The notes under the pieces were generated by a model. It was not told the DNA's origin. It ran no database searches and saw nothing but the letters and a program-made list of their open reading frames with translations. The position numbers and the translations under genes were made by a program. Below, one piece after another: positions 27,172 to 36,082 of a stretch of 40,079 bases of DNA. The first letter of the stretch is position 1; every line of letters begins with the position of its first letter. The DNA is from a virus. The DNA lies in the IMG/VR virus record IMGVR_UViG_3300032307_000142, positions 1 to 40,079 of that record; one strand, 5' to 3'.

Positions 27172-27581
27172 GCTTTATTCTCCGGCCACTTACCTCGCTG
27201 CACCATCATTGCAATGATGCAATAGTTGGCTAAGTCTTTGAATGAATCCTCAATGGATTCGTGTTGTGGTGTATTGCCTGAGTCCAGTAAGTTCTTCAAG
27301 CGTTCCCACTTGTCACCCATACGAACCATTAGTCCGTTGAGTGGGCCACCATAGGCATTGTTGATATTGCCCGGGCCATAGTCTCGCTGCTTTGAGATCA
27401 GTAGATTGCCAAGCTCATCGATAATATCCCATGAGTCAGCAATGAACTGATCCATCATCGGGTCTTTGGTAACTGCACCCGGATCCATAGGCCCGAAGGT
27501 GTTTGCTTTATCTCTAGGACTTGGATGCCTAATGATTCTATTGAATTCCTCATTAACTCCATGTCGCTCATATTCACTCAT
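27168..27581 (-). CDS. Nmad1/DUF1599 nucleotide-modification-associated protein
   Basis: A 137-aa protein from ATG 27581 overlapping the primase stop by 8 bases. The pattern KQRDYGPGNINNAYGGPLNG, VRMGDKWERLKNLLDSG and DSFKDLANYCIIAMMVQRGKWP is typical of nucleotide modification associated domain 1 (DUF1599), helical and MazG-like in outline. Members are found beside genes that alter phage DNA bases or handle nucleotides. Here no base-hypermodification enzyme was recognised, so it may act as a nucleotide pyrophosphohydrolase in precursor supply. Confidence 0.82.
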   Translation of the reverse strand: MSEYERHGVNEEFNRIIRHPSPRDKANTFGPMDPGAVTKDPMMDQFIADSWDIIDELGNLLISKQRDYGPGNINNAYGGPLNGLMVRMGDKWERLKNLLDSGNTPQHESIEDSFKDLANYCIIAMMVQRGKWPENKA

Positions 27582-28227
27582 TTATCCCTAACCTTTTCCG
27601 TAGTCCTTCGATACCTTCATCCATTACAACAGAGTTCACATCGCTACCCGGTGGGAGCGAGATTAGTTCTGCATGTTCTACTTCTTGCAATACTTTCTCT
27701 GCAAGTTCCATACCCGGGTTAGACCCGTCCTTCTTGTCATCGTTATCTGCTAGTACTAAGACTCGCTTGTATCCTCCAAAGAGTCTGTTGAAGTGTGGTC
27801 TCCACGCTTTTGCTCCCGGTACTCCGACACTCGGCAAGATCTGACTTGCAATAATACTGTCGAGTTCTCCTTCGCAGATAGCAATCGCATCTCCTGGCAA
27901 CTGCAGATCCACCGCATTGAAGAGTCGAGCTGGCTGGTGCATGGGTGCCATGTATCTCGGCCCCGGTAACTCGTCCACCCTACGAAACTTAAAACCAGCA
28001 ACCCCATGAACAACACGGTATGGAATAGAAAGCCATCCAATAAACTGTGCATGTGCAGGATCACAATCTACTGGCACGGTTCCGAGAAGATGAGCGTTTG
28101 CCAACTCCTTGCTGAACCCTCGTCCGTGAAGATAAGAGGCTGTCCTTTCGTCTATCTTTTGATTGTATGTCGATGCCAGATCCTTTAGCAATGTCAATCG
28201 CTCGTTCGATAGCAACACGAAATTCAA
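27574..28227 (-). CDS. Primase TOPRIM half (split primase)
   Basis: Up to 217 aa from TTG 28227, lying in a different frame from the zinc-finger half and overlapping it by 167 bases. RTASYLHGRGFSKELANAHLLG is the typical start of the catalytic part. Then come CEGELDSIIA with Glu119, VPGAKAW and VLVLADNDDKKDG with Asp161-x-Asp163, the metal-binding acids of TOPRIM, and PPGSDVNSVV. A GGAG eight bases before the TTG, or AGGAG nine bases before a nearby in-frame GTG, could give independent translation. Otherwise +1 frameshifting, or an assembly error, would join the halves. Confidence 0.8.
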   Translation of the reverse strand: MNFVLLSNERLTLLKDLASTYNQKIDERTASYLHGRGFSKELANAHLLGTVPVDCDPAHAQFIGWLSIPYRVVHGVAGFKFRRVDELPGPRYMAPMHQPARLFNAVDLQLPGDAIAICEGELDSIIASQILPSVGVPGAKAWRPHFNRLFGGYKRVLVLADNDDKKDGSNPGMELAEKVLQEVEHAELISLPPGSDVNSVVMDEGIEGLRKRLGINE

Positions 28228-28441
28228 CTCCTTCTCTCCACATTAGCAATGTATATGCATCTCCACCTATGCCACATGTGTGGCAATAGTAGAGTCCTGC
28301 TTTATCTCCATCGGTACTCATGACTGCTGATCTGTGTGCATCCTGATGGAAGCAACACTTGACCGGCTTCGAGTATCCATCTCTTACTTCTCCCCCGTAG
28401 TGACGGATAACTGCACGGAGAAGGTCAGCATCGGCAGCCAT
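28061..28441 (-). CDS. Primase zinc-binding half (split primase)
   Basis: A 126-aa protein from ATG 28441 in a TAATG junction. It has the CHC2-type zinc finger of DnaG-like primases: CCFHQDAHRSA with Cys29/30 and His32, then YYCHTCGIGGDAYTL with Cys53 and Cys56, and a helical end RVAIERAIDIAKG. After about residue 85 the sequence turns into Arg/Ser-rich out-of-frame-like text that has no family resemblance. The true functional part therefore probably ends there and continues in the +1 frame as the TOPRIM half. Confidence 0.8.
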   Translation of the reverse strand: MAADADLLRAVIRHYGGEVRDGYSKPVKCCFHQDAHRSAVMSTDGDKAGLYYCHTCGIGGDAYTLLMWREGVEFRVAIERAIDIAKGSGIDIQSKDRRKDSLLSSRTRVQQGVGKRSSSRNRASRL

Positions 28442-28641
28442 TAGAATCGCTGTGCTGTCTTCTTAACTCTCTGATTCTTTTTGAGTGCAGCTAAGTCACG
28501 CATGTACTGCTCGTGAGCTGCGATCTCCAATCGCATGCGGCGATCTTCTAGTCGTGCCTGTACATGGTAGTAAAAACTTTCAGCAAAGAAATACAGGGCT
28601 ACACCTGCTGTTACTGTCAGTAGATTACTTAATGTATTCAT
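28441..28641 (-). CDS. Small membrane-anchored protein (66 aa)
   Basis: ATG 28641 overlaps the upstream TGA (ATGA) and its own stop overlaps the primase ATG (TAATG). An N-terminal transmembrane segment (LLTVTAGVALYFFAESFYYHV) is followed by a long charged helix (ARLEDRRMRLEIAAHEQYMR) and a basic end. It lies inside the replication operon, so tethering of replication to the membrane is one idea. There is no recognised family. Confidence 0.66.
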   Translation of the reverse strand: MNTLSNLLTVTAGVALYFFAESFYYHVQARLEDRRMRLEIAAHEQYMRDLAALKKNQRVKKTAQRF

Positions 28642-29000
28642 TCTATTACCTCCATAAATGTGTCGAGTTCCAGTATTACAAATGCTTTACCAACGCCATG
28701 CTGTCTTCGTTTAGCAATGACTATAGGTATCGCTGGCCCTGATGACTTGCGTTTCTTAATCCAGTTCTGTGCTTCCAGTACTGCTTCCTTCATCCATTGT
28801 CCGGGTAAGAAACCTTTGGTGTTCTTTGCTTCAACGACATAGAACTTCTTGTCTTTGAAGAACCATAGGTCTCCCTCGTCATTGGTTCCGCTGAGTCGTA
28901 AGCGTTCTGCTACGAGTTCCTTGTCTCTGAAGTACTCGACAAGCTCTACTTCCCATCCAGAACCCTTGCGTTTATTTGCCCTCGATTGCTTGGAGTCCAA
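28638..29000 (-). CDS. Hjc-like Holliday junction / PD-(D/E)XK nuclease
   Basis: A 120-aa protein from TTG 29000, with GGGGGTG seven bases upstream, overlapping the helicase by 29 bases. No later in-frame start keeps the active site. KGSGWEVELVEYFRDKE gives the first Glu, then SGTNDEGDLWFF with Asp44, and FYVVEAKNTKGF with Glu57-x-Lys59. This is the E...D...ExK core of archaeal-type resolvases and related phage nucleases. It would resolve branched DNA before packaging. The neighbouring helicase and primase support a role in replication or recombination. Confidence 0.76.
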   Translation of the reverse strand: MDSKQSRANKRKGSGWEVELVEYFRDKELVAERLRLSGTNDEGDLWFFKDKKFYVVEAKNTKGFLPGQWMKEAVLEAQNWIKKRKSSGPAIPIVIAKRRQHGVGKAFVILELDTFMEVIE

Positions 29001-29826
29001 CGAAATTCACCCCCGGTCTTACATCTGCTCGACCCTGTGCATCTTGGTCTGCTATCTGTACTCTCGATGGATCGATAAGCAAGGTCGCATACTGTGATGC
29101 ATCGGCTGAGTGTTCACCGAATCTATTCTTAACTGCAGCAACTCTGAACTGTCCATACTCCGGATCCATTGCGATGGATAGGATCATGGACGGAAGCTGA
29201 GATGCCTTGCCAAGTATTGCTCTTCGTGGTGCAGGAAACTTTGGATCTCCAGTACCGGCTTCCGACATATGAGTAAGTGCAAGTACACAAGCACCAGTCT
29301 TACGAGCCACATGGTGCAGCTCTGACATGATGGCACGGATACCCGACCACTCTTCACCTGCTACCGAGATACAATTCATTAGGTTATCCACAACAATCAA
29401 TGCAGGTGCCATGCCATAGACCTCGCCATAAGCAAGGATCTCCAGTTCAATAGCATCAATGTCTGGCGATGGATCAAATACCCACTTAATGTGAGATGCC
29501 TTCTCCGCCAGCAAGATGTCAAAGTAATGAGGATCTGCATCTAAGTATGTCTCTACTTGGTGCTGTGCTAATCCAGTCAGACCTGCAACTGTACGGAACA
29601 TCTGTGTGATGGGGTCGGTATCCGCCGAGAAGTAAAGGGTTGGTACCCCCGACCTCAAGGCGTATACCAACGCCATCAAGCTCTTACCTGAGTTCGGTTG
29701 TCCAGCGATAAGACACAACTGTGACTGACGGAATCGCATAGACATCCGCTTCATGCCCTCCCATGTATCAGGTAAAGGCTTAGCAGAAGAGTTGGTGCTG
29801 TGTACTGCTTGTAACAAGTTAAGCAC
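28972..29826 (-). CDS. DnaB-like replicative helicase / RecA-fold ATPase
   Basis: A 284-aa protein from GTG 29826, with AGAGGTGG upstream. Walker A is AGQPNSGKS (41-49), Walker B ALIVVDNL (142-149). VLALTHMSEAGTGD has the DnaB-family position of the arginine/histidine sensor region. The C-terminus has VAAVKNRFGEHS, like the KNR motif of DnaB/gp4 helicases. It lacks the DnaB N-terminal domain, so it is a single RecA-fold protein. It could be the replication helicase working with the split primase, or a RadA/UvsX-like recombination factor. Its length is short for a helicase. Confidence 0.82.
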   Translation of the reverse strand: MLNLLQAVHSTNSSAKPLPDTWEGMKRMSMRFRQSQLCLIAGQPNSGKSLMALVYALRSGVPTLYFSADTDPITQMFRTVAGLTGLAQHQVETYLDADPHYFDILLAEKASHIKWVFDPSPDIDAIELEILAYGEVYGMAPALIVVDNLMNCISVAGEEWSGIRAIMSELHHVARKTGACVLALTHMSEAGTGDPKFPAPRRAILGKASQLPSMILSIAMDPEYGQFRVAAVKNRFGEHSADASQYATLLIDPSRVQIADQDAQGRADVRPGVNFVGLQAIEGK

Positions 29827-33787: not shown

Positions 33788-33957
33788 TACTTGTCTTCTT
33801 TCTTGATTGTGTTACGAGTAGCATCGATCATGATTGCAATAGCAATGGCATATGTGACGATGGTTCTTGCACTACCCTCGAGAACAACCCATGCCACGAA
33901 CATGCCGAGCAATGTGTATGTCTGGTCGAGGATTGCACCGATGAACTTTTTAATCAT
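33787..33957 (-). CDS. Small two-span membrane protein (56 aa), holin/antiholin candidate
   Basis: ATG 33957 overlaps the stop of the proline-rich gene (ATGA), with AGGAGG five bases upstream inside that gene's last codons. The product [20 protein letters not shown] then has [12 protein letters not shown] and [15 protein letters not shown] as two membrane spans and a charged end ([10 protein letters not shown]). The stop shares a base with the next ATG. It is probably part of the lysis set with the neighbouring holin-like protein. Confidence 0.75.
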
Positions 33958-35507
33958 AGGTTCCTCCTATAAGCTGCTGCAGCTGCGGCTGATGCCGCTG
34001 CTTGGGTTGCGATGTTGCCAGCGATTACCGCTGCAACAATTACATCTTCGGCTTCTTCTCTTGCTTCAGGTGACATATCGGCACCGACATTGGCTAGTGC
34101 CATAAGAGCTTGAGCAGGGTCTGTAAAGATTGCTGCTACTAGATCTGCTGGATTACCCAACACTTCTAGTGCAATCACCACTTCAGCTGTAAGGATCACA
34201 CCATTCTCCAGTTGTACTGGAGTCTGTGGATCTAATGATTCTAAGTCCGTGTCTTCCGTGATTACCACTACTTCAGGTGTAACATTTTCTTCATGAGTAT
34301 TTGGTTCAGGTTCAGGAAGGACTTCAGCTTCAGGCTGTGGTACAGGCTCTGGCTCGACTTCAGGGGTTGGCTCAGTTGGAACTGGTTCCTCCATAACTGG
34401 AGGTTCTGGCTCTGGAAGAGGGTCAACCGGTAATGGTTCAGGGTCAGGAACAGGTTCAGGCAAAGGCTCTGGATCAGGAATTACTTCAGGTTCTGGAGCT
34501 TCTGGTTCAGGCTCTGGAGCAGGTGGTTCGGGTAACGGCTCTGGAGATGGAGCAGGTTCGGGAGCAGGTACTGGAACTGGCTCTGGCTGTGGGGCTGGTA
34601 CAGGTTCCGGCTGAGGAACGGGTACTGGCTGCGGTACCGGACTTGGTTGAGGATCAGGAGCTACAGGTACCGGAGTCGGCTCAATGGGCTGCGGAGCAGG
34701 TGTTGGAGCAGTTTGCTCTGGAACGACAGGCGTTGGTTGAGGTTGAGGCTCAGGTTGAGGTGTTGGAGCCGGGGATGGCTCCGGTGTTACAGGAACTGGA
34801 GCAGGCTCAGGAGTCGGCTCAGGATTTACAGGAGCCGGAGTTGGTTCAGGCTCTGTTGCCGGTTCATTAACAGGTGTATTATTTGTGCTACCGGAAGGGG
34901 TAGAAGATGACGGTTGATTTGTTGACTGAGCAGTTGAAGTCTCAGTTGTTGGAGTTGCAGTTTCGTTTGTACTCGGAGCAACAGTTGCTGTTGCAGTATC
35001 GGGAGAAGGCTCTATTGTCGGAGTCGGTTCCGGAGTGGGCTGACTTGAGGGTTGCTCGGTTGGAGTCGGAGTTGGTGAAGGTGAAGGACTCGTTGTTGCG
35101 GTTGAAGTATCTTGAGGTTGAGGCGAGGTCTCTGGAGTCGGCTCTACTGTCGGACTAGGGGATGGTGATGGAGTTGGTTCAGGGGTTGTTGTTGGCTCTG
35201 GTGTTGGTGTCGGTGATACGCCGTTATAGTAACCCAAAGAAGAATTGGAAAGATCGTCACTAACATAAGTATTAAAGCCTTGTGCATAACCACCTTCGCA
35301 GAATAGGCGAGGGATGTATCCTCTGTCTGCAAAGAATTGATTAGAGTTATCCCAACCAATCTGGAATGATTGCTGAGTTCCATCTGACTTACCGCATACA
35401 ACATTGGCATTACCCTGAGCTGCATTAGCAGATGGCATTAGCCAGAACGATGTACCTCCGATTAAAAATACTATGGCTACTAGGTTGTAAACCTTTTTCT
35501 TATCCAT
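33954..35507 (-). CDS. Secreted proline-rich repeat protein in the lysis region
   Basis: A 517-aa protein from ATG 35507. [18 protein letters not shown] then a hydrophobic core and ANA site form a signal peptide (1-29). Residues 30-90 are a small domain with two Cys ([18 protein letters not shown]). Residues about 95-405 are Pro/Thr/Glu/Ser repeats ([16 protein letters not shown]), likely an extended wall-spanning rod. The C-terminal 110 residues are helical, with [20 protein letters not shown] and [21 protein letters not shown]. No LPxTG sorting signal is visible. Export to the wall or cell surface is clear from layout. Function is unknown. Confidence 0.8.
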
Positions 35508-36082
35508 ACTTGTGGGCCAGTCCTTATCAAGTCGATGTGATCTTTCATGAGGGTGACAAATAGATCAATAGATGGCTTAGGTCTTAGATGCATAGGCAAT
35601 TCATCGCCCCATTCGTAATCATCAAATGCCATGATTCCGCCGGGCTTTAACGCTTTCCAAGATAGTGAAGCATCTTTGAATACTGCATCAGCAGTATGAT
35701 CTCCGTCAATGTAGATGAAATCAAAGACTTCTTTTTCATCTGCAGTAATTAAATAATTTTGACTCATCATCTTAACTTTGATGACATTGGGGCAGTTGCC
35801 CACCTTGGAGTCGTAAACCTTTTCTACATCAGAGAAGTCCATCTCATGATGGGCTATCTCGTCAGACCCTTGCCAAGTATCAACATCCGTAAGGATGGAG
35901 CTTGGGTGGGTGAGTATGTTATTGACCAGCCATAGACTGGCATCACCTGTGAAGGCACCTATCTGTAAGAACTTAAGGTTTTCTTTATCTTTGAACTCAG
36001 CTAATAGATCCTTGAAGTATCCCTCTGCCCAGATTGAAAACCAGTTAGGGTAATTACTTTCGCTTGGATGTGATGATGTCAT
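35480..36082 (-). CDS. SAM-dependent methyltransferase (class I)
   Basis: A 200-aa protein from ATG 36082, overlapping both neighbours by about 28 bases. [18 protein letters not shown] is the SAM-binding motif [21 protein letters not shown] is motif II with the DGDH seen in Methyltransf_24 enzymes, then [16 protein letters not shown]. This subgroup typically methylates sugars or small molecules rather than DNA. With the glycosyltransferase it might modify a surface glycan or virion protein. The target cannot be deduced. Confidence 0.82.

Follow-up and report, generated by a model that had tools for sequence, protein, structure and literature searches.

How does a virus make a DnaG-type primase when the two halves of the enzyme lie in different reading frames? 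The window analysed here is the whole of the virus record IMGVR_UViG_3300032307_000142 (40,079 bases, positions 1 to 40,079). An earlier note on this DNA had described a CHC2 zinc half and a TOPRIM half in overlapping frames, offset by +1 over 167 bases, and had offered a two-subunit primase, a programmed frameshift or an assembly error as explanations. We find both ORFs where the note had placed them. The TOPRIM frame is +1 relative to gene 1 and is open over 28227..27574 on the minus strand. It encodes 217 aa if translation begins at TTG 28227, which gives the overlap of 167 bases, and the overlap is 158 bases if translation begins at GTG 28218 (Table 1). We consider it highly probable that this DnaG-type primase is made as two polypeptides from overlapping genes, with gene 2 initiated independently at GTG 28218 and the subunits presumably acting in trans.

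Table 1. Features of the split primase locus and its neighbours, in positions of the window.
Feature	Position	Strand	Evidence
Gene 1, zinc-binding subunit, CHC2 zinc ribbon, 126 aa, ATG start	28061..28441	-	Pfam, PHROG, AF2 model, alignment to 1d0q and 2au3
Gene 2, catalytic subunit, primase RNA-polymerase domain with TOPRIM, 214 aa from GTG 28218	27574..28218	-	PHROG, invariant residues, AF2, VIA
Shine-Dalgarno AGAGAAGGAG, within gene 1, nine bases upstream of GTG 28218	28228..28237	-	Anti-Shine-Dalgarno duplex energy, Gly codon bias
Gene 2 start codon GTG	28216..28218	-	58/58 relatives; substitution change point
Dual-coding stretch, codons 75-93 of the zinc (ZN) frame	28163..28218	-	Both synonymous-type rates low; helix in each subunit
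TCA AAA GAT AGA, proposed +1 slip site	28151..28162	-	Variable in relatives; function unsupported
RusA-like / PDDEXK Holliday-junction resolvase (neighbour)	28638..29000	-	PHROG 244, 1.5e-22
DnaB-like replicative helicase (neighbour)	28972..29826	-	Pfam DnaB_C, 1.4e-7; PHROG 243, 9e-65

The family identity of both proteins is clear. Residues 10-93 of gene 1 match Pfam Zn_ribbon_DnaG PF01807 (3.2e-9, above the gathering cut-off), and the protein matches the PHROG 360 DNA primase family with 2.4e-17. The zinc ligands C29, H32, C53 and C56 are invariant among 16 divergent proteins. Gene 2 matches PHROG 849 / 47 DNA primase, with 1.5e-26 for the PHROG DNA primase families, and reaches 9.4e-6 against Toprim_3, where its 26.4 bits are slightly below the 27.2-bit cut-off. 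The TOPRIM acidic residues E116-G-E118, D158 and D160 are invariant. The Pfam DNAG_N profile gave nothing above threshold across the whole record. The locus thus carries the CHC2 zinc ligands and a TOPRIM fold with conserved acidic residues, as a DnaG-type primase does, but its zinc and catalytic domains are encoded by two ORFs in different frames and not in one polypeptide.

Whether the split is conserved among relatives, a check proposed in the earlier note, can be answered directly. Scans of viral contigs provided 58 distinct full-length sequences with TOPRIM proteins that are 71-100% identical, and all 58 share the frame offset and a first ORF of 126 codons. A wider scan with a profile from cultured phages, which also covered bacterial genomes, yielded 178 loci with both parts visible; some of them share a contig, and they comprise 136 distinct overlap sequences. 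The +1 overlap is found in 173 of the 178 loci and an intact in-frame fusion in none. Relatives of the TOPRIM protein occur in 1,453 phage records, and among the matches listed most fall under one or two genes named DNA primase. In cultured phages of five actinobacterial genera both genes are annotated as DNA primase. The 15 regions examined closely, from phages of Mycobacterium, Gordonia, Rhodococcus, Streptomyces and Cutibacterium, have the +1 geometry with the exception of Streptomyces phage Loofah. The two-gene annotation is therefore already widespread in actinophages, and the window is a further example. No cultured member of the window's own clade was found among the relatives; this clade is metagenomic.

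The window resembles the named actinophage pairs in several respects. Mycobacterium phages Journey13 (gp54/53) and PetiteSangsue (gp55/54), Rhodococcus phage Erik (gp49/48), Streptomyces phage WRightOn (gp62/61) and Cutibacterium phage P106C (gp32/31) have a CHC2 ORF followed by an overlapping +1 TOPRIM ORF, as the window has. In the actinophages, the zinc ribbon of gene 1 ends in an E-[GE]-V motif whose codons typically double as a Shine-Dalgarno, with the gene 2 start directly behind it, and the gene 2 start of the window likewise follows an internal Shine-Dalgarno at this position. A stop in the second frame often immediately precedes the Shine-Dalgarno and start in these phages, for example GAGGAGGTGAGTT ATG in PetiteSangsue. 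A DnaB-like helicase and a resolvase or endonuclease VII are close by in both, and several Streptomyces and Cutibacterium phages likewise have a resolvase annotated beside their split primase. The pairs differ from the window in their catalytic proteins, which are 26-41% identical, and in their start codons, which are TTG, ATG or GTG.

The start of gene 2 is well defined. Its context in the window is AGAGAAGGAG TTGAATTTC GTG, and nowhere else in gene 1 is pairing with the 16S tail as strong as for the start at 28218 (-11.9 kcal/mol). The Shine-Dalgarno of gene 1 itself is weak, with -1.1 kcal/mol. For the 136 distinct overlap loci the mean pairing energy of the best candidate start is -10.0 vs -3.4 at controls, a contrast that is somewhat inflated because the candidate is the best of a few in-frame starts per locus. 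The Gly codon within the Shine-Dalgarno is GGG in 47 of 58 relatives and GGA in 11, while elsewhere, in the non-overlapping part of gene 1, GGG accounts for 33 of 466 Gly codons. The earlier note had allowed for a separate TTG or GTG start within the overlap. The GTG at 28218 holds, with the best Shine-Dalgarno and presence in 58/58 close relatives. TTG 28227 is rejected as a start, as it abuts the Shine-Dalgarno and its codon is TAG, a stop, in 17/58 relatives and TGG in 27/58, that is, one or the other in 44/58.

The substitution pattern locates the point from which the second frame is under selection. Parsimony was used to map substitutions on a tree. Before the GTG, third positions of the ZN frame account for 377 of 503 changes, compared with 11 of 60 in ZN codons 75-93 (Fisher p 1e-17; many relatives are close, and p-values are indicative). 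After the GTG, substitutions shift to the third positions of the TOPRIM frame. The best single change point lies at ZN codons 75/76, which is the GTG, and a change point at the slip codon 94 is worse by 34.5 log-likelihood units. We conclude that translation of the second frame begins at the GTG and not at the slip. Codons 75-93 show constraint on the zinc frame as well, since substitutions that leave the TOPRIM protein unchanged and alter the ZN protein occur at 1.76 per opportunity there vs 4.76 in the TOPRIM-only part. The same rate is 3.33 in codons 94-126, which indicates weak zinc-frame constraint. A second clade agrees with this pattern but has a blunter edge, as its change point falls anywhere between 0 and +9 codons relative to the start and a position at +19 is worse by 44 units. 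Two further features of gene 1 were considered. Its conserved stop was set aside as support for the gene, because the conserved D-C-D of gene 2 dictates the TGA. The absence of stops from its tail has P = 0.05 in the window and 0.07-0.66 in other phages, and is not decisive alone.

Structure models give a complete domain for each protein. The AF2 model of the 214-aa gene 2 protein has a mean pLDDT of 94.3 and a pTM of 0.89, and opens with a helix at residues 5-20. In VIA it matches 2au3 (Z 20.7) and 5guj (Z 20.3) over essentially its full length, with its first residues placed at the onset of the DnaG catalytic domain (5guj 112-366, 2au3 99-347). Gene 1 is modelled with confidence up to about residue 90, with the last helix at 74-88, and its basic tail (91-126) is disordered and of low confidence. 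This model aligns to 1d0q and 2au3 and covers residues 9-100 of the latter, the Aquifex DnaG. With coverage of 9-100 and 99-347, the two models tile the zinc and catalytic domains of DnaG with no gap between them. According to the models, the nucleotides of codons 75-93 would be read in one frame as the final zinc-domain helix and in the other as the opening helix of the catalytic domain. The earlier note had seen the resemblance of frame 2 to primases appear only near KIDERTASYLHGRG. It begins about 20 residues earlier, directly after GTG 28218, where frame 1 still encodes the last zinc-domain helix. A +1 slip at TCA AAA GAT would enter frame 2 at about residue 21 and drop helix 5-20.

Several relatives have separated the two genes. 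In Loofah (L120) and in the Streptomyces prophage L225 the genes do not overlap, and gene 2 follows the gene 1 stop with its own Shine-Dalgarno and TTG. In L182 and L183, two contigs from one sample, a homing endonuclease ORF separates the zinc gene from an intact catalytic gene. This ORF (L182:1433-2011, also in L183) has the first ~32 residues of the catalytic subunit fused to a zinc-loop/His-Me/HNH homing-endonuclease-like domain; the full catalytic gene downstream has its own intact N-terminus, which is thus present twice. The loci of Loofah, L225, L182 and L183 are unable to make a fused primase by a single slip. A different arrangement is seen in L227:1605-2531 from Streptomyces sp. TSRI0281, a broken prophage copy with a stop within the zinc ribbon, where an apparent deletion puts the remaining zinc ribbon in frame with the catalytic part.

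These results bear on the other ways in which the locus could be read. A programmed +1 frameshift at TCA AAA GAT (28162-28154) would produce a fused primase beside an unshifted 126-aa short form, and enzyme halves in overlapping frames with a conserved +1 relation are the geometry that it requires. The TCA AAA GAT AGA highlighted by the earlier note is indeed present, but a role in slippage is contradicted on several counts. Constraint on frame 2 starts at the GTG, ~20 codons before the slip, and the motif is variable, with ten versions of codons 93-97 among 58 sequences; L070 reads CCA TCA CAA GGC, in the version CCA TCA CAA GGC GAA. There is no stop codon at the slip to pause ribosomes. The fusion would delete a catalytic helix that aligns to solved DnaG, and it is beyond the reach of the relatives with separated genes. 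We regard this explanation as improbable. A combination in which two separate proteins and a minor frameshift fusion are both in use is conceivable inasmuch as some frameshift genes also retain internal starts. It fares no better than the frameshift itself, as a conserved slip motif is absent from the 58 relatives and the separated genes show that the fusion is dispensable in those lineages.

Even less room is left for the two readings that treat the split as damage. Decay of the primase, with a degenerative split and priming of replication by the host DnaG, would fit a host that would possess DnaG and the one broken prophage copy. It is very unlikely given the strong purifying selection on both frames and the invariant zinc ligands and TOPRIM acidic residues, and nearly all relatives found keep both genes. 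That a missing or extra base has broken an intact single-gene primase during sequencing or assembly, an error that IMG/VR-type virus records do contain, is refuted by the identical offset and ORF length of the 58 distinct full-length relatives from many samples and by the same layout in cultured, deposited phage genomes; we assign it next to no probability. Of the options in the earlier note, the two-subunit primase is the one supported by the conserved layout, the GTG with its Shine-Dalgarno, the constraint, the models and the separated relatives.

With two overlapping genes and an independent start, two proteins would be made from one message. Gene 1 would provide the zinc-binding domain for template recognition and gene 2 the complete RNA-polymerase (TOPRIM) domain. 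Translation of gene 2 would occur by independent internal initiation at GTG 28218 in the +1 frame, from a Shine-Dalgarno embedded in gene 1. Some 20 codons would be dual-coding, so that the same nucleotides specify the last zinc helix and the first catalytic helix. Both proteins would then accumulate, form one primase and dock on the helicase, and at the fork the subunits would work in trans together with the phage DnaB-like helicase encoded next to them. Corn et al. reportedly found in 2005 that primer synthesis is regulated in trans between DnaG subunits. The helicase of the window (28972-29826) has 284 aa, and only the C-terminal ATPase domain is matched by Pfam and PHROG. This phage DnaB-like helicase appears to lack the N-terminal domain on which a primase usually docks.

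Compared with bacterial DnaG, which combines zinc-binding, RNA-polymerase and helicase-interacting domains, the window shares the zinc and catalytic folds. It differs in having two polypeptides with no covalent linker, and neither protein ends in a helicase-interacting C-terminal domain. The primase-helicase gp4 of T7 has a small catalytic domain of similar fold to gene 2 (VIA Z 16.4 to 1nui), and T7 gene 4, like the window, has an internal start that is served by a ribosome-binding site of its own (PMC12593628). In T7 gp4, however, zinc, catalytic and helicase parts are fused, whereas the window has three genes, and the T7 internal start leads to a colinear truncated form, whereas the internal start of the window is out of frame. 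The T4 primase gp61 is separate from the helicase, as in the window. A helix-turn-helix motif after its zinc ribbon binds helicase (PMC10359460), at a position comparable to that of the dual-coded helix of the window. Work on T4 has addressed what the zinc domain, the catalytic domain and the linker do, and the linker was proposed to help set or limit primer length (PMC10359460). T4 gp61 is one chain with this linker, in contrast to the window, which has none.

Beyond the window, we think it likely that a large group of actinophages has an obligate two-polypeptide DnaG-type primase whose zinc-binding and catalytic domains lack a covalent link, with a lasting +1 dual-coding overlap in which ~20 codons specify a structural helix of each subunit. 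Primer site and length would then be set wholly by trans assembly on the helicase. With subunits that are started independently, as the evidence indicates, these phages offer a natural way to test whether the zinc and catalytic domains of a primase have to be covalently linked. A literature search, in which few subscription journals were covered, found no paper on gene 2 expression or on the dual-coding overlap. The results also call for a correction of annotations, as several records begin the second gene 100 or more bases late. In StrongArm (L114), Asten (L119), Ibantik (L122) and phiHau3 (L126) the annotated start of the second primase lies ~110 to 195 bases downstream of the onset of conserved catalytic sequence, and the deposited second-gene proteins of these four phages probably lack the N-terminal helix.

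The zinc subunit shows further variation at its C-terminal side. In Cutibacterium phages L121 and L124 the gene 1 frame past the gene 2 start is unlike the zinc domain, and subunit 1 seems to have lost its dual-coded helix. The motif [YF]-[VIQR]-P-x-W-[KR]-[KR] recurs at the C-terminal end of zinc subunits, within their disordered tail, for example in L178, L180, L196, L202, L222-L225 and L120. It may be a binding motif, and it is retained in Loofah and L225 despite their non-overlapping genes. In the window's clade the zinc subunit ends in SRL instead. Elsewhere in the window, a 517-aa ORF at 33954-35507 is rich in Pro, Glu and Pro-Thr repeats, has no Pfam match and adjoins a methyltransferase-like ORF at 35480-36082.
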